Assembly (NCBI GenBank): GCA_037576195.1
Contig: CM075104.1
Span: forward strand, 9,430,775-9,494,774
Direction: 5' to 3'
Origin: Phytoseiulus persimilis
Taxonomy: Eukaryota > Arthropoda > Arachnida > Mesostigmata > Phytoseiidae
Length of the DNA stretch: 64,000 bases
The notes below the pieces were generated by a model, which was given only the letters and a program-made list of their open reading frames with translations, was not told the origin of the DNA and made no database searches. Each line of letters starts with the position of its first letter. Position 1 is the first letter of the stretch. Below, one piece after another: positions 820-49,500 of the stretch. The translations under genes were made by a program, and so were the position numbers.

Positions 820-1700
820 GGATCCCATTTGCTTCGGTGTCCATACAATTCACACTCGTGTACCTCCTGTTCAAATTCAAGAACAGTATGTCACCCTCCG
901 AAACAAGCGCGAGAAATAGTAGTTTGTAAGTTGAGCCTCAGACGCTCTCGAGGAGATACTGTTCTCTGAATGATTAACTTTTTCGTGAAAACACTGTTTG
1001 TCGTCGATTTACAGGTGTTCGCAGGGTACAATCATGTCCGTTGCTACGGGATACCCGAATGGAGATCACTGAGACCCGCTTCCCACCAGGAATTTATGTC
1101 GCGAACTTGAGGCATCTGCGACCTGGATTCAAGGAATCTTGTAAAAGCGGTCCCCATTGGAGCCCACTTCCGCCGGTGGCCCCCGAGGGCCCGATCGATT
1201 ATTTTGGGTGTCGGTTACAACGAGTCACGGCCTTTCACCAGGTCGATTTCTATGAACCCTGTTTTCTTTTTCATGAAAAACGCACGATTCCATCACAAAA
1301 ATGGTTTGGCCAATTTTACTCTGAGAACGTGCTCTGCGACTCTACACATTTTGTCCATCTGGCGATTCGACAATATCTCGGCGACGGAGTCCTTCCTCCT
1401 TGGTCGACTGAGCTGATCCTCACTGAATATAATTCCCCGTTCAGCGTATGATGTGAAGCGCTGGCTAGAGGTTAGGTGCCCCATCGAAAATGTGAAAATC
1501 TGTTGAAGCCAACTCCGTGGAAAAAGGGGCAAGGGATTGAATCATTCCGTGCTGACGCCGCGGTTATTTTCGACGTCTCACGGGGAGATCAAACGGATGA
1601 GTTGTTGCTGTTTGTACCGCCTGGCGTCAACAGTTTCAGCCGGTTCCAGGAGCTCGTAGTACCCCACCGAGGAGACCGGATGGCTTCGCTTCAAGATTGA
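820..1700 (+). CDS. 3' part of a three-exon gene, unrecognised product
   Basis: Three exons join in phase: 820-925, 1015-1445 and 1509-1700, ending in TGA. The donor at 926 is GTAAGT and the acceptor at 1013-1014 follows a pyrimidine-rich stretch ending TTTACAG, so this intron (89 bp) is well supported. The second intron (63 bp, GTATGA donor) is phase 0 on both sides. The first exon carries a Cys-rich run (about RCPYNSHSCTSCSNSRTVC), then the frame continues through roughly 205 residues with normal composition and C/G-rich third positions. If the 5' exons do not exist, an internal ATG at 1059 could start a shorter protein. No family is recognised. The upstream acceptor at 818-819 (TTCTTAG) is the least certain boundary, and the true 5' end is not resolved. 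Confidence 0.45.
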
Positions 1701-3829
1701 TTCGGCCCCAGAGTCGATGCTCCTCCGGAGTACACTAAGGGTTCTTTTCCGCTCAGGATTCTCGCGAATCTCGTGTCATTGGTCTCGTTCCGCATTCGAT
1801 GCTGAGAATTCTCCCGGTGTCGCGCAAGCCGCATTCCGGAGATGCTTCTTCAATTTCCTTGCTGTCGTGAATCCAGTTTCTGCGGGATCAATTTCCCGAG
1901 TCTCTTATATTTTTCAATGACTTGCAAACGCCGGGGGCCGATTCCTCGACTCGGGTTCGACCGATTGGCAAGCTCTCCTTGCGTTCGCGTGTCATGTAAA
2001 CCAGCGGAGCTTTATCCTCAATTTTTGTGGACGTCCGACCTCCAGCTCAACAGTGGTCGAATCCAGAAGTCAGTTGGAGATCGGGGAGCTCATCAAGCCC
2101 AGACAATAATCCAACAAAGGGTTCGATCAAAGGGTCACCGAACGACGGCGGCTCAAGTTTTCAACGCGGAGGGAGCGAGTTGTCAAGTGGTGAAGTTCTA
2201 GAGCGAGGTTCACGGCCTCCGGATGATTCGAGACTTAAACCGGCTCGATCGAAGTGAAAATTAGACTTTGAACGGATGAGCAAGCGAACTAACCCCGAAA
2301 TTCAGCAGTTCTGGGTGGCCTCCCCGTTGGTGGTTTCGCACGTTGGAAACGAGACTGACCTCAGAGTGTCGAAGGAGCGGGCGGGCGCTCGAGCAGGCGA
2401 GCAGAGGCAACTGCGATCATGGAAATGTTGTTACACCCGCGTACGGTGTTCATGGTGATATGTTGTTGTTGTTGATTGTTATATCGCTGCGCTGGTCCAG
2501 CCAGTCAGCGATAGAGCAGGTTGGAGAGCAGCCCGAAGCAGAGCTGCGGTGGAATAAATGTTCGTTGCTATTTTATGTCTCGAGGCTTTATTTAGTGCTA
2601 AGTTGATTTCGTGTTGGCCAGATACCACAGGGGGTTGTGATAATCGAATCATGCCAACATCAGGTACGCCCATCGCGGCTTGTTCTTCCAAAACACTGCC
2701 TTCGAGAGCCGCGCCGGCAGCCGGATCTGGGTTATGCTCTTACGAAAACGACGAACACGAACGAGAGAGGAGAGCGGATGCGACGCTCAGGAAATCAAGA
2801 AGTTTGAGATGTCGGGGATGTCGCTGCGGTCAAGGCGAAGAAAGCCGTGCATACTGATGGCAACGATCGGAACTGTAGAAACTGTTCGATGAGAGGCGAA
2901 CAGAACGACACGGTCGGATGGGAATTCCACCTACGGAGTAACGGATGCACTCCGGCAAGAAAGGAAGAGGGAGAGCGGAAAGTGCCATTCTGGAACGCCT
3001 GTGTACGCGCGTGGGAGCCTGTTATTCTCACAAACATAGCGGCGAGCATGCCGTCACGCTCGCATATCTGCCCAATATCGTCGCCCGAGCGCCTCTCTCG
3101 AGCAACCCGTCGACACTCTCAACATCACCCGCTGTGAGCGAGCGCCTTATCAGCGGACGACACGCGTAAATGTGGCGAGCTATTGAGCATTGTTACCGAG
3201 AGGGAAACTGTTGTTGGCGGTCGGGTTGTTGAACGGGACGAGGGGGGACGTTGCAAACCAGTGCGGGTATACCTTTGCTCGGCCGGAGGAGAAGCTGGCT
3301 GGCAGAAAGACAGACACTCAGTCGACTGAGGTGCGCTGTGAACAACGAATACAAAGGAGATTGGCAACTAGCTCAGCTCTTCTACTTTTCGCCCGTTGCC
3401 GCCACGTCTCCTCCAAGCCGCGTTGAATAATGGACGTCCCCAATTGAGGCAAACAAGCTGTGAGAAAAGCCCGCTTGTCGGTTGCTCTGCATGTACAGTT
3501 ACCTCGCAACTTGACTAACTTCCCTCAATGTGGCCTAATATCGAACAAGACAGCGGCAGTCCGAATCAGAGATCCAACAACACCGACAGGGAGAATGAGA
3601 GCTTTGATTATCGAACTCGTCCGCTACGAACGAGCCCGCCAAGCCGAGTCAGTGTACGCGCGAACGAGCACCTCATCGGGCTTCCAGTGCATTTCATCCG
3701 GAGAAGCTTCGAGCGGTTCACGTCACGTCCACGCTTCGGGGTTGGAGATCGCCATTTCAGCGGGGAAAGCTTCCCACGCCCCTGCGAGGAGAACGGCTTC
3801 GATCGAGGCGCGACTCGCAGCTAGACATG

Positions 3830-41339: not shown

Positions 41340-43755
41340 GCGGGGGCCGCCTGTTGCGGCGAGCTGAGTTTTTTCGAAGCTGCCAACTGACCCTACGGCA
41401 CGTGAAGATATATCCTGATCAGCGTTGATGCAGGAATACAGATAAGCCCCCAAAAGAGATCTTCTCGCCTGCGGAAGCGCTGATTCTTCCTGCATCGGAA
41501 TTTCCCAACTCCTCTTGTCGTCCAGTGCAGCCACGTCGTGATTCGAGCACGGTTTTCCTTCCGTGGGCGTGTTCGGAGAACGGTACTGAAATACCATACA
41601 GATGCATCCGGAGAGCTCATGAGTCACAAGCCTCTCGAGATTTACAGGCCAAGATCGTCGGGAGATGGTTCAAGCAACTCTCATTACAGTTAGCGGTGAT
41701 ATTTGGTGCAAGAATCAGATATTTTTTGCGTGGATAATTTTTTCCATATCAGACTCATAGGCCGCCATGGTTGAAGGTTGTTCTTGGAGGGGAGGGAAGT
41801 GTTGGGGAGACAGGTACCCCGAGAAGATGCTCACGGGCCGCAAAGCATGGCTTGTGGCGGACTGATTTCACAGCATTCTGAAATCAGCGATTCTCGGATC
41901 AGTTTGTCGGAGAAACTGTTCTTGTGCTGCAGCACCTGAATAACGGTGTTCCCCGGAAATCGAATATTTGGAGCGGAATCGGGTATTTTGCAGTCGACGG
42001 GGATTTTCCAGTGCCGTCGGAGATGAGCCGAGCTGGAAACCTCACGAGATGTCATCCGTCACCCAGCTGAGAGCGGCCGGACCGTTTCCCGAGTCTCCGC
42101 AGCTGCCCAGCACTCAGTCTGCCCCGACGAGTCGCCAAATCGTGATTCGTGTGAGTCGCTCAGAATTTAGAATCTGGAAGGAGTTCATATTCTCTGACCA
42201 ACATTCCGGGCGGACTCCGCTACAATCACAACGATGAGCGTTCATCTGCTGTGTCGCATCTCTGCACCTCGTCAGTCAGGCTGAACTTTTTCATCGAACC
42301 ATTTTCTACAAAGTTCGAAACTGTGAGCCGACTCGGCTGATGGCGTCTCTCATTATTCCGGAGAGGAGGGTGAGCTTGAGAACCCGGTTGTACCCAGTTT
42401 GATAGCAGACAGCGTGTAGAGGGTGATTGGAATGATTGCTGTCCGGAAAGACCTCCCGGAGCTCAGCTGAGCGTTCTGGACCAACGACTGGGTATTCTTA
42501 TCCCCATCGGCTCAGGATCCAGAAATCTAGGGTTGACGAATGGCTAGAGCGGGAACTTATCTTCCGCACTGCGCTCGGGAATCGCGCTTGAATAACTCTC
42601 TCGCAGCTCTCGGTGTATTTTCGTTCGAGCTAAGCACGTTGTCGGCAGACACTCTATCGCTCCCCCCTCGGATCTCTCCTGAATCGCATCGCTTCGTAGA
42701 CAATGAGCAGTTCCCAAACACTTCCGATATTTCAAAATACCACAGAGCTTCGGGGAACCAAATGACGCTCCAGGCAAGCTACGGCAAGAAGTGTTTGATG
42801 AGCGAAAATATTCTCAAATGAGCTCATGGACGCGGTCGCGGGAGATCGAATGAGCTGTTGTCCGTTAATCTGTCTGCGCTTAGGTAAAGATAAGATGGAA
42901 CGCGTCCTGTTGCCAACAATTATCACAAGAAAACGAAGCCGATAGCAGCGGTGAATAGCCGAATAGAGCCTCATTAGAGATTGGTGCCAAAGTAGTTTGA
43001 CCAGGAGGCTGCTCGTGGTGTGTACTGCTCCGAGTCTCGTATCGTAGATATCGTAGAGGGAGCTAAAAATACAGGCACGCACACGCTAATTTCCCCTTGT
43101 TTGTATCGCAACGGTTCCTGACGCCGTCGCATGCAATCTGTCTGCTTTTCAAACTGATTGCTTCAGCTATTTGCAAAAAACGCCTTCGTATCAGCAAAGC
43201 CATGCCGGAAGAGCTCGACCGATCTCAACGTTCTTCAGGACGATGAGGGAACGCGGGAACATTTTCTCTCCGCTCCCAGACACCGATGGATTGAGGAGTG
43301 GATTCCGAAGTCACACGAAGAGACGCCGGGGAAGAACCGGGCGTTCGAACTCCTCTGTAGTTGGTCCACACAACGAGGCTCCGGAGTGCCGCTGTCCACA
43401 CGGGCGGGAACGTTGACCGTGCGCGGCACGCCACGGAACATTTGAGCCGATGGTGTAACGTGCGCGCTCAGCAACGCCGTTTTGGCTTGTTTTCGCGCCG
43501 TCGCTGAGCGGAGCCCTGCTCGGAGAGGGCCGAGCGTTGTCGTTCGTCGTCACAAGAATATCCCTAGCTGTCGGTCTTCCCTTCCGTTTGTCCGACGCCC
43601 CGACGACGGTGTTACTGGTTGGTTGGTTGGCTGGCAGGCAGGCGTGCTCGCTTGCTTTCCCGCTCACCACATTCGACGACGCCGCTCTGTGGCCAGCTGA
43701 CGGCAGCGTCGCGGCCATATTGAATGTGATCCACGCGAAAACCACAAGTAACGCA

Positions 43756-45201
43756 ATGGCGTTCCAACCTGTGCTGTACAAAAACGATGATCTCGTTGAG
43801 CGAAAACTCAACCCCGAGCCCCGAGCTCTCCGCTGGTCTCTGCGACAGGAGTGCATCGAGCAAGTGAAGCTCAATCTTCTACAGTGGGCCAGGGCCGAGG
43901 GCCGAACGCAACCTCCGTACCAACTCAACGTATGCCCGTCGACTCTGCTCCAAGAAGTTCTGCACTCGGTCCTCAACGACGAAAGCAGCTCCGACCCCCT
44001 GAGACGTGTGGCCGAACAGCTCCTGACCAATGGTTTAGAAGAGTTCGATTTTCGGTGCATTGACGATCTGGCATATTGTGAAATCGAAGCAATTTTCAAC
44101 TTGGTAAAAGTGCACGGAGTGAATTTCCGCCGACTCCGCCTGATCGGCAGCTGGATTCACTACCCGAACGCGGCTTCGATGGTCCGGGAAATCGTCAAGA
44201 GCTGCCCGAATCTGGAGCAGTGTGCCCTCCAGGAAGCTTTCTATGAGGACTTGGTCTGCGTCGCTCGACACTGCCCGAAACTCCGTCAGCTGGAGATTCT
44301 GCACCCCTCGATCACCGGCGAGGACGTCGAGAAGGTCCAGGCCGTGGCTCGAAGAGAGAAGTTCGCCCTGAGGAAAACCTTGAAGCGCCTCTCGGTGCCG
44401 TCGTCGCTGAGCGGAAAAGCTCTGCTCACGCTGCTGGAAATCTTCCCCGAAGTCGAAGACGTGACGTGCGTGGAACTCGAGGGACTCATGCAGGCCATGG
44501 CCGAGGCCGAGCCATCGGCTGTGACCCGATGTGCCAAACTCCGATCGCTCCGGATCAACAAGGTTATGGGCTGGAACAGCATGGAAAACCTCGTGCAGGC
44601 CTTCCCCGGACTCCAGAGTCTCTCGCTCATCACTCAGGAGATCATGAATCTGCAACAGATCTCAAAGCTGGCCCACTTGACCCAGCTGCGCATCGAGAAC
44701 AGCCATGTCATACCGTCGTCGTACACGGACGACATTTTACCCCTCCTGAGGGTGATCGGCCAGAATCTCAAGCACCTCAGTCTCGTGCATTTCGACGTTA
44801 TCGAGCTGCCGAAAACCCATTCGTTCTGCCCCAACCTGGTCTCGTTGGACCTGCATCATTTCACCCTCCTCGGCTGTAACTCCGACCCCATACACCGGCT
44901 CCAGTACGGCCGGGAGAAGCCGTTCGCCAATTTGCGGTACCTCTCGATGCGACCTCGCCAGGGGAAGTTCATCTCTCAAGAAGCGTGCCACATGCTTCTC
45001 AAACACAGCACCCGTCTCCTGAACCTCGAACTGCACGAAGCCTACGGCATGACGGACGCCTTGGCGAACATTCTGTCCGATCACAACGGATTCCTGGAAC
45101 TGAGGCGGATCCGATTGCGCGGAGGGCACTGTTTGAGTCGGACAGGCATCGAGACCCTCCTGCACAAATCCACAGAGCTACGTCACTGCCACATACCTTA
45201 A
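43756..45201 (+). CDS. Intronless leucine-rich-repeat protein (RNI/FBXL-like), 481 aa
   Basis: By far the longest frame in the window. The open frame extends upstream to 43537 without any ATG, so the first in-frame ATG at 43756 (GCAATGG, G at -3 and +4) is the likely start. After about 90 residues of helical, Cys-poor N-terminus, degenerate leucine-rich repeats of about 25-30 residues run to the C-terminus, in the style of ribonuclease-inhibitor-like or F-box LRR proteins: for example CPNLEQCALQEAFYEDLVCV (150-169), HCPKLRQLEILHPSITGEDV (172-191), CAKLRSLRINKV (259-270), HLTQLRIENS (307-316), NLKHLSLVHFDVIELP (337-352) and RLLNLELHEAYGMTDALANI (420-439). Such solenoids bind proteins, often as substrate adaptors of SCF ubiquitin ligases, but no F-box consensus is evident at the N-terminus. 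Third positions are strongly C/G. No signal peptide or membrane segment. A poly(A) signal follows at 45516. Confidence 0.93.
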   Translation: MAFQPVLYKNDDLVERKLNPEPRALRWSLRQECIEQVKLNLLQWARAEGRTQPPYQLNVCPSTLLQEVLHSVLNDESSSDPLRRVAEQLLTNGLEEFDFRCIDDLAYCEIEAIFNLVKVHGVNFRRLRLIGSWIHYPNAASMVREIVKSCPNLEQCALQEAFYEDLVCVARHCPKLRQLEILHPSITGEDVEKVQAVARREKFALRKTLKRLSVPSSLSGKALLTLLEIFPEVEDVTCVELEGLMQAMAEAEPSAVTRCAKLRSLRINKVMGWNSMENLVQAFPGLQSLSLITQEIMNLQQISKLAHLTQLRIENSHVIPSSYTDDILPLLRVIGQNLKHLSLVHFDVIELPKTHSFCPNLVSLDLHHFTLLGCNSDPIHRLQYGREKPFANLRYLSMRPRQGKFISQEACHMLLKHSTRLLNLELHEAYGMTDALANILSDHNGFLELRRIRLRGGHCLSRTGIETLLHKSTELRHCHIP

Positions 45202-45426: not shown

Positions 45427-45515
45427 TCCCCAGCGGCTTGAAAACGAGCGCCACACAAGAGATCGAACAAGCGCGTTGTCCAACACTCCGACAGACGTCC
45501 CCCGGACAGGGAGGT

Positions 45516-45521
45516 AATAAA
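45516..45521 (+). terminator. AATAAA poly(A) signal of the LRR gene
   Basis: Canonical hexamer 315 bp after the stop codon, followed at 45527-45544 by a T/G-rich stretch (TTTTGTTGTGTTGATATG) that fits a downstream cleavage element. Implies a 3' UTR of about 330 nt. Confidence 0.7.
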
Positions 45522-46019
45522 GAATGTTTTGTTGTGTTGATATGATTCTTGACTTCGGATGGTCCACGAGATCTCGAGGACTGCAAGACTTCCGGAGAGG
45601 TCATCCGCCGAACAAGAGAATCGCATCCAAAGGTTCCAGATTTTCCTTCCTTCCGAAGCTTCCGCTCTGCCGTTCGAAGCGACTGCTGATAGTATCTGCG
45701 GAAACGACCACTGAACGGCATCAACACCACTTGGGTCGCCAAAGTCCAAACAACCCTCGAAATATAGATACTCTGCAGCTATTACGCCGTCGCGTCGCGC
45801 GAGTGTAACGGCTACGCTGCGGATTAGTGATTATTGTCAGTTTTTGCTAATTGAAGACGGTTCCGAGTCGATGTCCGGTACCGTTGTGCGCCACGGTTTC
45901 GCAAGTCGTGCGGCCGAGCCAGCCTGCAATTCCCGTAATGAGCCTTCCAGCCACGAGACTAGACTTCAATTCCCGTAATACGGAGTACGGAAATTCTTAG
46001 CCTCGGAAGCATTGACGAT

Positions 46020-46178
46020 AGAGCACAAAGACCTTGAGTGAAATTGTTCACCGCAATGAGCTTTAAAACATCGCTTCGTCGTTTTCACTTTTTCCTCCAA
46101 CTCCCTCACGGTGCTAGATAGATGAAAATGATGAAGAGCTTTTTTGTCTGCCTCACTTTTCTGAACGATTTCGGTCAT
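46020..46178 (-). pseudogene. Open frame in the left arm of the foldback element
   Basis: Starting at an ATG at 46178 (MTEIVQKSEADKKALHHFHL...), the left arm encodes a frame that aligns codon for codon over 66 codons with one in the right arm, with no indels. It continues to a TGA at 45966-45968, at the terminus itself. Of about 19 differing codons only about four are synonymous, so there is no sign of selection for protein sequence. No match to a known transposase. Most likely a fossil exon fragment carried in the repeat. Confidence 0.45.
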
Positions 46179-46348
46179 GACAATTTTCCGTCTATTCCCA
46201 ACGATTCTGCCGGAAACTCGAAAAAACGTGGGCTCCACAACTGGGCTCATAAGACTAAGTGCGATAATCGGACTTGGAATTTTTGAGAACTCTCGCGAGA
46301 GTTTCCCTCATTTGTATAGGAACGAGTTGAGATAGACGGAAAAGTCTC

Positions 46349-46549
46349 ATGACCGAAATTGTTCAGCACGAAGAGGTGGACAAAGAAGCTCTTCATCATT
46401 TTCCCCTATCTAGCACCATAAGGGATGGAGAGGAAAAAGTGAAAACAACGAAGCAATGTTTTAAAGCTCATTGCGGTGAACAATTTCACTCAAAGACTTT
46501 TTCGTCTATATTCAATGCTTCTAAGGCTAAGAATTTCCGTACTCCGTAA
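46349..46549 (+). pseudogene. Matching open frame in the right arm of the foldback element
   Basis: Starts at the ATG at 46349 (MTEIVQHEEVDKEALHHFPL...) and ends at TAA in the terminal CCGTAATACGG. It is the inverted copy of the left-arm frame, sharing a KCFKAHCGEQFH-type segment with Cys and His. It may be the remnant of an ancestral coding sequence or a chance open frame kept by duplication. Confidence 0.45.
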
Positions 46550-46599
46550 TACGGAAATTGATGTCTGCACGAGACTAACCATTGAAGTGGACTGCAATA

Positions 46600-49500
46600 T
46601 CGTTGATGGACTTTGGAGCATTCCAAAGTGCCACCCATGTCATGAAACACGACTTGTCTAGGTCGTCATTGTCGCCGCTGTGGTGGAAGCACTTCTGATG
46701 GAGTCGTTTGGCATATAGTCAGAACAGCGTCTCTGGCAGTCTCGCGGTTCGCTGCGCGAATTCTGTCCGGCCTGACTAGAATTCTCTTTCCGGCTAGAGT
46801 TCACAACGTTGCCACGTCCGAAGCTTCGTGGACGTACCGTCTCTCCTGGAGTTTGAAGGCTGTACTAGGAGCTGTTGAGACTTCATTCCGGAAATTCGGA
46901 CGTCCTTGAATGTTCCAAGGGGATTTCTTGAGGATCAAGTTGTAGCCGCCCTGAAGATGGAATTTTCGATTCGCTGTCCACGCATTCACGTCGCATTCTC
47001 TAGGAGCTCGTCCTCGAATCGCGCTCAATCGATCGATACTACCGTCTGAGCGAGTTTCCCAGACTGTACTGTTATGGAGCGTTTTGCTGATTACAGCCGA
47101 TAACCGTTATCCACGAACGTCGACGAGTACGGTGTCTAGCCTGCCCTACGACTGTTGAGCACTGGTAAAATGTGCACAGCGCGCTAATTCATCCGAATTC
47201 GCGCGGTCGATTTTCGCGCGCATAGCGGTTCGACGACATCTATGATTAGTTGCATGCAAGTGGTCGTGACGGTCGAGCGAATCGCAATCGATGAGTATCA
47301 TACCAGGGGACCATTTTCTGTTCTCCACAGCGAGCGACGCACGAAAAATGTAGCATTCGCGGCGAAATCCGCGATCAATTGGAGCAACGCTCAGTGTGCT
47401 CGATGTCAGAAATTCGATTCCAGGAGCGGCGCCAGACACAAACCTTTCGGGTTGTCTGCCCGCTCGTCCGAGTGGTTGTGACCTCATCTTCTGTGGCGGG
47501 AGGTTGGATCAAGCTGAGAATGGCTCTGAAAGCGGACGGAAAAAAACAGATGCTGGCAATGATCGCCCTCATGTGGAGTCATGTGCGGCCCAGGAGCTCT
47601 TCATGTGAGGAGGGGCGAGACGCTGGAAATCACATGGATCCAGGATAAAATGCCGAGCACTGTGTGCAGAGCCACGCTAAAATTCTCGCATAGCTTCTCG
47701 CGATCATCGCGTCATACTCGTTGGCATCGCGTGCATCCGAAACGGCGAGGAATCATGCCGAAAGCCGAGCTCTGGTGATCTATGAGCTGTTCGTCTGCCC
47801 TCTCCAGACCGAAAGGTTCGAGCTCGCACGACATCATGGGATGATTCTAGAAGTTTCGAGTTTACTCGCCCCACGACTCGGGAGCTTTCGTTCGCGCCAA
47901 GTAGCTCAACAACTAGACGTTGACACGCGACACCCGAAATACTAACTAGCGTGACCTATGCTTTGTTAAAAGCTGTGTTCCGAACCCCCTTCTCCTTCTT
48001 TTGGGACTTTCCTCCCGTTACCACCAGACATTTCATTAGAGAACGGGTGGACCTATTTTCCTAGCTGCTATCGAGCGATCGTGAAAAAAAATAAACCAAG
48101 CGATCACTTCGAACACCCTTCTGCTGCGGAGTTTTCGCTATTGTTACCCCTGTTGGCGGTTTCCCGGTTTTCTGCGAAATCGAGGACCATGCATGGAACT
48201 TCAGCTCGTGGGCTGTTTCTTGGGATCATCTTCAGCTAGCTATGAGTCGGGAAAGGAATGTTATTAATGAGCTTCGGATTTGTTTGACGCGACGTCCGAT
48301 TCGAGCTCCGTCGATCGCTAGCTGGAGCTGCTGAAGCAATGCGGAGTTCCTGCTATACTTGCCGCTATTGGTGACTTGAGGCCGCGCTTTTTACGCGGTC
48401 GATGCTCTCGCCGCTGCGAGAATGAATAATGGCCCTCCAGCCCGTTGGGAACGCCTGTACCTTGCAGCGAGGAGAGCGTGAAGGTTGGGACTCACGCACG
48501 CACACTAGCACGCGCATGCATGATGCCCTCAGCTCCACATATCATATGGACAGGTTCGAGAGAGCCCGTGCGACTCGTGGACGGCAACGTGGCCTTCTGA
48601 CGCCATCCATTCATCAAATATTAAAAAGTGTCAACTAGAAGTTGCTCCACCTTTCATGCACTCGCGGTTTAGGAGCTGCTCGACGCCTCAGTGCTTCCCA
48701 GGGCGGTTGATTGAGCGCCGGCCACAAAAAAAAAACGGGAAATTTCATCGCAGCAATACAACTCCTCGATTTCCTCTAAAAAATTCAAAGGGATTTCTCG
48801 AGCGGACCTGATATATAATTGAAGAGGCAGTCCGTGAATCGCGCGTTCTAGTCGATGAACCCATCGACTGAGTTGCTCTCTGCCGACAATTGATCCAAAA
48901 CACTCGGTGAACGGGAACGAAAATTACTCCGGCTCCAGTGAACGAGTGAAACCGAATCACACCCATAGCGAGGTTGTTCTTGCTTGAGTCATCGACTGAC
49001 GTCAATCGGACGGATCCGACGCGCCGCCGTAATTCGACCACGCTGACGTTCCGTCTGTTCGCTTTTCCGTCCGTTTGTCTGTCACAGGAATTCTGTTTTT
49101 CGCCAACTTTCTCGCCGGACTTGCGTATTGCGGCCGATCCCGCACGAGGAACACGTTCGTGGGGACGCCGGGAGTCCGTGCAAACAACGGGAATCGGATC
49201 TGGTTCACATTGTGCGTCAGGCTTGCTCGATCGGAGAAGTTCGCAACTTCGTTGAAACTCTTTGAAGATCATTGGGATCGCTAGAAGTTCGATGTTGGAA
49301 ACAATCAACCGAAGCCCTACAGTCCCTCAAGAAATTGCTCATGTCCAACGCACCGTTCGTCTTGGATTGTCCTTCAGGAGGGGAGGACTAGGAGTCGATT
49401 TCCAGTCGAGAAAGCAGCGCTCCCGTGTTGGAGCAGCTGCTTCGGTGAAATCCGAGTCGCTTCGAGAGGTCGCGAAAGTGAAACACGCCGATTTCCCAAT

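Follow-up and report, generated by a model that had tools for sequence, protein, structure and literature searches.

The closest described counterparts of the element reported here are Tetris and DAIBAM of Drosophila virilis, which are presented in PMC4079207 as a foldback and a short MITE with common termini, both thought to be moved by a single autonomous element that was not found. Galileo, a Drosophila transposon of the P superfamily, is similarly described as having long, foldback-like inverted repeats and a preference for palindromic targets (PMC4168063). Here we describe a foldback element within a window of 64,000 nucleotides from Phytoseiulus persimilis (assembly GCA_037576195.1, contig CM075104.1, positions 9,430,775 to 9,494,774) and the family to which it belongs.

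The likeness to Tetris is considerable, since both are non-autonomous foldbacks that have a terminus in common with a short MITE and no conserved ORF (PMC4079207). The differences lie in the arms, which contain internal tandem repeats of about 220 bp in Tetris and none that we could see here; in the target duplications, which are 8-10 bp in Tetris, leading its authors to suggest Mutator, and 8 bp here; and in abundance, as only three structurally complete Tetris copies are described (PMC4079207) compared with about fifty near-identical copies here. Galileo, in turn, is reported to make duplications of mostly 7 bp, with three 8-bp cases and a D. willistoni consensus of GTATTAC, and copies with transposase-coding segments are known (PMC4168063), whereas the duplication is 8 bp here and no such coding copy was found. 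A third point of reference is hobo, of the hAT superfamily. The terminal repeats of hobo are short, the hAT terminus consensus is YARNG, and hobo is without the 235-bp arms of our element, whose terminus is YAGAC, not YARNG. The likeness consists of an 8-bp duplication with a T2/A7 target preference, the hobo target motif being GTNCGNAC (PMC3276498) as compared with (G/C)TC-NN-GAC here. Among the matches listed from the literature on foldbacks and hAT, none describes a hAT foldback by title.

Taken together, the results below make it likely that this is a recently amplified, non-autonomous foldback-type TIR transposon (a long-TIR MITE), moved in trans, probably by a hAT-like transposase, and that the ORF in its arms is passive.

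A foldback element of 608 bp

The features of the locus, in window coordinates, are as follows.

45952-45959, no strand: left 8-bp target-site duplication, CACGAGAC, perfect over 8 bp at this register in 47 of 49 full copies
45960-46567, no strand: whole non-autonomous foldback element, delimited by copy comparison
45961-46195, plus strand: left inverted arm, from inverted-repeat pairing and copies; the element end reads TAGACTTCAATTCCCGTAATACGGAGTACGG from 45960
45966-46250, minus strand: left-arm ORF, 94 aa from ATG, judged by the ORF tests to be passive and no gene
46196-46331, no strand: loop of 136 nt; the equivalent loop of copy L061 contains a LINE insertion
46332-46566, minus strand: right inverted arm, from pairing and copies; the element end, read inward from 46567, is CAGACATCAATTTCCGTATTACGGAGTACGG
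46349-46549, plus strand: right-arm ORF, 66 aa, judged by the ORF tests to be passive and no gene
46568-46575, no strand: right 8-bp target-site duplication, CACGAGAC, followed by host-flank TA at 46576-46577

A preliminary description of this DNA had proposed a foldback transposon of 606 bp with inverted arms of about 240 bp. The foldback is borne out by its inverted arms, its extreme fold and its many copies with target duplications; the arms measure 235 nt each and the length is corrected to 608 bp. The arms are 86% complementary in an ungapped pairing and account for most of the element, around a small 136-nt loop, as is typical of foldbacks and long-TIR MITEs. Indeed, the predicted fold energy is -359.1 kcal/mol, as against -147.0 (sd 5.9) in 20 shuffles, a z-score of -36. 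Also in keeping with this class, the element contains short ORFs only and no transposase of its own. An Rfam scan of window positions 45500-47000 gave no match.

Two neighbouring features deserve mention. Just upstream of the element, a 19-bp stretch (45921-45939) that includes CAATTCCCGTAAT matches the left end (45961-45979) at 89%; a 13-mer of this type, allowing at most one mismatch, occurs, in the flanks compared, beside the window copy only, out of 49 copies, and the stretch may be what is left of the end of a different element. Further upstream, at positions 43537-45201, is an open frame of 554 residues whose leucine-rich-repeat match is weak and does not reach the curated cut-off.

An apparently recent amplification to at least 50 copies

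We searched the 181-Mb assembly, which has four large contigs of 55, 52, 39 and 28 Mb. The best 40 of 135 candidates in a DNA search with the element were all 98-100% identical to it, and the terminal pattern, allowing up to three mismatches, was found at 55 forward and 53 reverse places genome-wide. Comparison of 51 loci (L021-L071) yielded 49 full-length copies, 607-609 bp long, among them the window copy (L060), which is one position off the 49-copy consensus; the remaining two are a copy with an insertion (L061) and a single old arm (L062). There are thus at least 50 young copies (the 49 and L061), dispersed over contigs C1-C4, C12 and C20, and the possibility raised earlier that the genome might contain no second copy at all is ruled out. 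Each copy carries 0-13 substitutions from the consensus and four copies are identical to it, which is why the burst looks recent. The family is an ordinary kind of element that has undergone an unusually clean and, by all appearances, recent amplification.

Older relatives are present as well. Two of them, L107 and L108, retain 77-85% identity over long stretches, the loop of L108 containing another repeat family, and further old relatives are mostly at 62-80% identity.

The preliminary description had also suggested looking for a longer copy with a transposase. A longer copy does exist, L061, and it does not carry a transposase. It spans about 3.9 kb, is flanked by CTTGTGAG on both sides, and has 3.3 kb within its loop with a stop-to-stop frame of 1,111 residues; in Pfam that frame matches a reverse transcriptase domain at E 5.5e-33 and an endonuclease domain at E 4.5e-9, so that the long ORF is that of a LINE. 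The reverse transcriptase stretch recurs at full length in at least 14 other places at 97-99% identity (among the best 142 of 1518 candidates). Because none of these 14 places coincides by eye with a listed foldback place, we take the insert to be a LINE that landed in the loop; its junctions show an imperfect 6-bp repeat, CATAAG/CATATG.

An 8-bp target duplication with a palindromic motif

The window copy had been credited with a perfect 10-bp target duplication, a length that the copies do not uphold. Of the two full copies outside the 47 with a perfect 8-bp duplication, L063 has one mismatch and L045 has no duplication. Directly after the left duplication, 48 of 49 copies read TA and the other reads CA; being present in all 49, these two bases are part of the element. 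On the right, by comparison, the duplication is followed by TA in just two of the 49 (the window copy and L068), about the level of chance. The apparent 10 bp thus arise because the element starts with TA and a host TA happens to follow the right duplication.

The 47 perfect duplications define a target motif. G or C occupies position 1 in 39, T position 2 in 31 and C position 3 in 34; positions 4-5 show little preference; and G6 is found in 36, A7 in 30 and C8 in 30. The resulting motif, (G/C)TC-NN-GAC, is palindromic, without a CG preference at its centre, and is confined to the 8 bp, flanking positions holding at most 0.17 bit. A strict fit to NTNNNNAN is seen in 19 of 47 targets. The hAT-type preference nTnnnnAn is represented by T2 in 31 of 47, A7 in 30 of 47 and both in 19 of 47, and a P-like motif fits about equally.

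The probable source of the transposase

The copies show that the inserted unit is precisely bounded, at about 608 bp, and that insertion makes an 8-bp duplication, with a preference for palindromic (G/C)TC-NN-GAC sites. Movement of this kind would be cut-and-paste, by a transposase supplied in trans and most likely of the hAT superfamily, which would recognise a terminus of about 35 bp common to the foldback and to much shorter MITEs of the same genome. The foldback terminus is YAGACWTCAATTYCCGTA, with the end sequence YAGACWTCAWTTYCCGTA; YAGAC agrees with the hAT consensus YARNG at four of five positions and departs from it at base 5. Nearly the same 35-bp end is found on two short MITEs, L103 (189 bp) and L109 (103 bp), both with perfect 8-bp duplications, and the same terminus is found on L105 (159 bp), which has no perfect 8-bp duplication at the boundaries used.

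Several observations accompany these short elements. A 524-bp element at L120:4026-4549 has a related terminus, its ends reading TAGACATCATTTTCCGGAGTCCGGA and its perfect 8-bp duplication CTCCTGGC, and in L072 a related end is found close to a fragment of a hAT transposase. L104, L106 and L073 contain minisatellite-like arrays, with units that in translation give repeats such as ITPPELESNAQIGLG, and in L104 and L106 one end of a related MITE adjoins such an array. The locus of the L103 MITE codes for a cuticle protein of insect type (Chitin_bind_4, E 5.1e-18), which identifies the host as an arthropod.

The 8-bp duplication agrees with that of the hAT superfamily, and hAT dimerisation domains occur at at least 145 places in the genome (from the best 150 of 444 candidates). 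In 30 hAT loci, taken with about 1.5 kb on either side, no two matching ends were flanked by the same 8 bp, and three of the 30 (L072, L080 and L090) each contain a single terminus-like match. When hAT places were compared by eye with terminus places, none lay within about 6 kb of each other among the matches listed (100 of 108, 100 of 387 and 150 of 444). Individual candidates for an autonomous partner were also set aside. L072 and L073 have only a 1,387-bp block in common, with ends undefined; L095/L096 shows one end, CAGTGGCGTGCAA, which differs; L122 is a lone terminus-like 15-mer with no second end within 1.5 kb; and L120/L121 has other ends, CAGGGGTGGGCAA. The last two loci form a near-identical hAT pair in their own right (L120 at about 1279-3747), with 99.5% identity along 2,448 bp and an open frame of 647 residues, and they may represent a recently active autonomous hAT. 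Because YAGAC differs from YARNG at one base and the loci examined yielded no partner, we call the family hAT-like and do not make it a hAT member.

Two other sources for the transposase are conceivable, each of them unlikely. According to the first, a P-superfamily enzyme mobilises the foldback, just as Galileo joins P-superfamily membership to foldback-like long TIRs (PMC4168063). The P-element target motif GTCCGGAC, with its 8-bp duplication (PMC3276498), bears comparison with (G/C)TC-NN-GAC, although the motif described there extends over 14 bp, whereas ours stays within the duplication and has no central CG preference. The two Pfam P-type transposase models gave no match in this genome, an absence that weighs little because they gave none in 14 control genomes either. 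According to the second, which we also hold to be rather doubtful, YAGAC ends, 8-bp duplications and palindromic (G/C)TC-NN-GAC targets would mark an undescribed transposase branch serving both MITEs of 100-200 bp and foldbacks of 600 bp, its source being hidden or lost after the burst.

A Mutator-type foldback, as a 10-bp duplication would suggest, is more improbable still. Most foldback elements are thought to be Mutator members (PMC4079207), and MULE transposase domains are indeed common in this genome, at 150 places or more. None of the 12 MULE loci examined, however, carries the foldback terminus within the sequence compared. Mutator duplications are about 9-11 bp long, a length that the foldback family does not share, and the Mutator reading became disfavoured once 49 copies had fixed the duplication at 8 bp, the length seen perfectly in 47 of them. 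The 8-bp duplications and the palindromic (G/C)TC-NN-GAC motif are better suited by hAT or P than by Mutator, and a hAT-like transposase acting in trans remains our preferred source.

The ORF in both arms looks passive

As the preliminary description had noted, the same 66 codons are open in both arms, and the stop-free runs of the two arms are 71 and 75 codons long. Its count of about 28 differences in 200 positions, mostly nonsynonymous, is confirmed by the consensus ORF, in which the arms differ at 27 of 198 positions, 8.5 of the changes being synonymous and 18.5 nonsynonymous. It had proposed, as one of two explanations, that the arms descend from a captured exon. We consider it very unlikely that the arms stem from an exon that was captured and once had a function, or that the ORF is still translated. 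The shared ORF looks like a by-product of mirror-copy arms and chance, and no gene: the arms would be inverted copies of one old sequence that happened to lack stops in one frame, so that the ORF appears twice.

How readily such openness arises can be judged from simulation. Among 2,000 dinucleotide shuffles of one arm, 21% reach at least 66 codons in any of six frames and 13% reach 71; with one arm given and 27 neutral changes added, the other arm is open in 42% of simulations. The open neutral simulations average 6.8 synonymous changes and 24% of them reach the observed 8.5 (P 0.24), so that the synonymous count is neutral-like provided that the arm must stay open. An arm-versus-arm dN/dS of 0.52 might speak for an exon, but the ratio is similar, 0.47, in an antisense frame that contains 5-6 stops. 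Of the 27 differences between the arms, 13 are at third positions, a leaning (P 0.08) that counts against the passive reading.

Variation within the young family points away from coding. Its 55 distinct ORF variants comprise 8 synonymous, 45 missense and 2 stop changes, the synonymous share being below a chance expectation of about 27% (P 0.047) and the stops close to the roughly 1.6 expected. By codon position these variants fall 18/28/9, a depletion at third positions (P 0.007) that is opposite to coding constraint but also sits awkwardly with the passive reading. In Pfam, the best match of both arm ORFs was at E 0.078, all being below the cut-off.

The old relatives supply evidence on both sides. 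Divergent relatives extend down to 35% protein identity with many of them open, and L107 and L108, recovered with a DNA pattern in place of a protein query, have three of their four arms open; L110, L112, L114 and L115 also have arms open through one frame. The openness of the arms of L110-L119 is biased, however, because these 10 of the 13 old loci came from a protein search that favours open arms. In a fairer sample, made up of the second arms that were of sufficient length for comparison (in L107, L108, L110, L112, L114 and L116), five of six have indels and that of L108 is open. The 13 loci offer 26 arm slots, of which 20 could be aligned and 6 were too weak to align. In the aligned arms, changes at codon positions 1/2/3 number 262/305/272, and ten arms that are mostly in frame give 132/158/148 by hand sum; neither set has the third-position excess that an exon would leave. 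The absence of a Pfam family, the absence of this excess and the stops among young variants all argue against a captured exon.

An old, inherited difference between the arms

As an alternative to the exon, hairpin-mediated conversion of the arms had been invoked, removing indels while tolerating substitutions. The young family contains 2 indels as against 90 distinct substitution variants, and at this ratio the chance of no indel over 27 differences is about 0.55, so that the lack of indels between the arms is unremarkable. Among aligned old arms, 16 of 20 contain a gap and 6 of 20 an in-register stop; gap placement here depends on the aligner, and several +1/-1 pairs are probably artefacts, with an ungapped protein alignment running through them. 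Similarly, what aligns as a one-base insertion in L108 (+) could in fact be a deletion that keeps the frame. Frameshifted arms, which the preliminary description would have counted against its reading, occur among the old relatives only, and young copies keep the frame.

When the arms are placed in a tree, the young family, L107, L108 and L116 have their left arms together in one group (support 0.70) and their right arms in another (0.83), both supports being moderate. With the two consensus arms the L116 left arm shares 73% and 72% identity, and its near-equidistance makes its position in the tree ambiguous. For the arms of L107 and L108, same-side exceeds opposite-side identity in each case (87 versus 80%, 83 versus 74%, 85 versus 80% and 82 versus 79%), and a deeper subfamily is partly split in two as well (the arms of L110 and L114). 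Since the arms mostly group by side, the difference between them is an old one that the copies have inherited, with no homogenisation of the arms afterwards; the 14% arm difference would be older than the split of the older copies. Conversion that keeps the arms alike and removes indels is hardly credible in view of this clustering by side and not by copy in the young family, L107 and L108, of old second arms that are usually broken by indels, and of within-copy arm identities down to 70% in L107, 74% in L108 and 66% in L116 as against 86% in the young consensus, even though young-family arms pair ungapped and four of nine variants at arm-diagnostic sites match the other arm, a share close to the one third expected from random changes.

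Implications

The family offers a clean, apparently recent foldback amplification in P. persimilis. Its inverted arms illustrate how the same ORF can appear twice without being coding, which is a trap for gene annotation. With the exact foldback ends and the target motif in hand, the autonomous partner should be findable.
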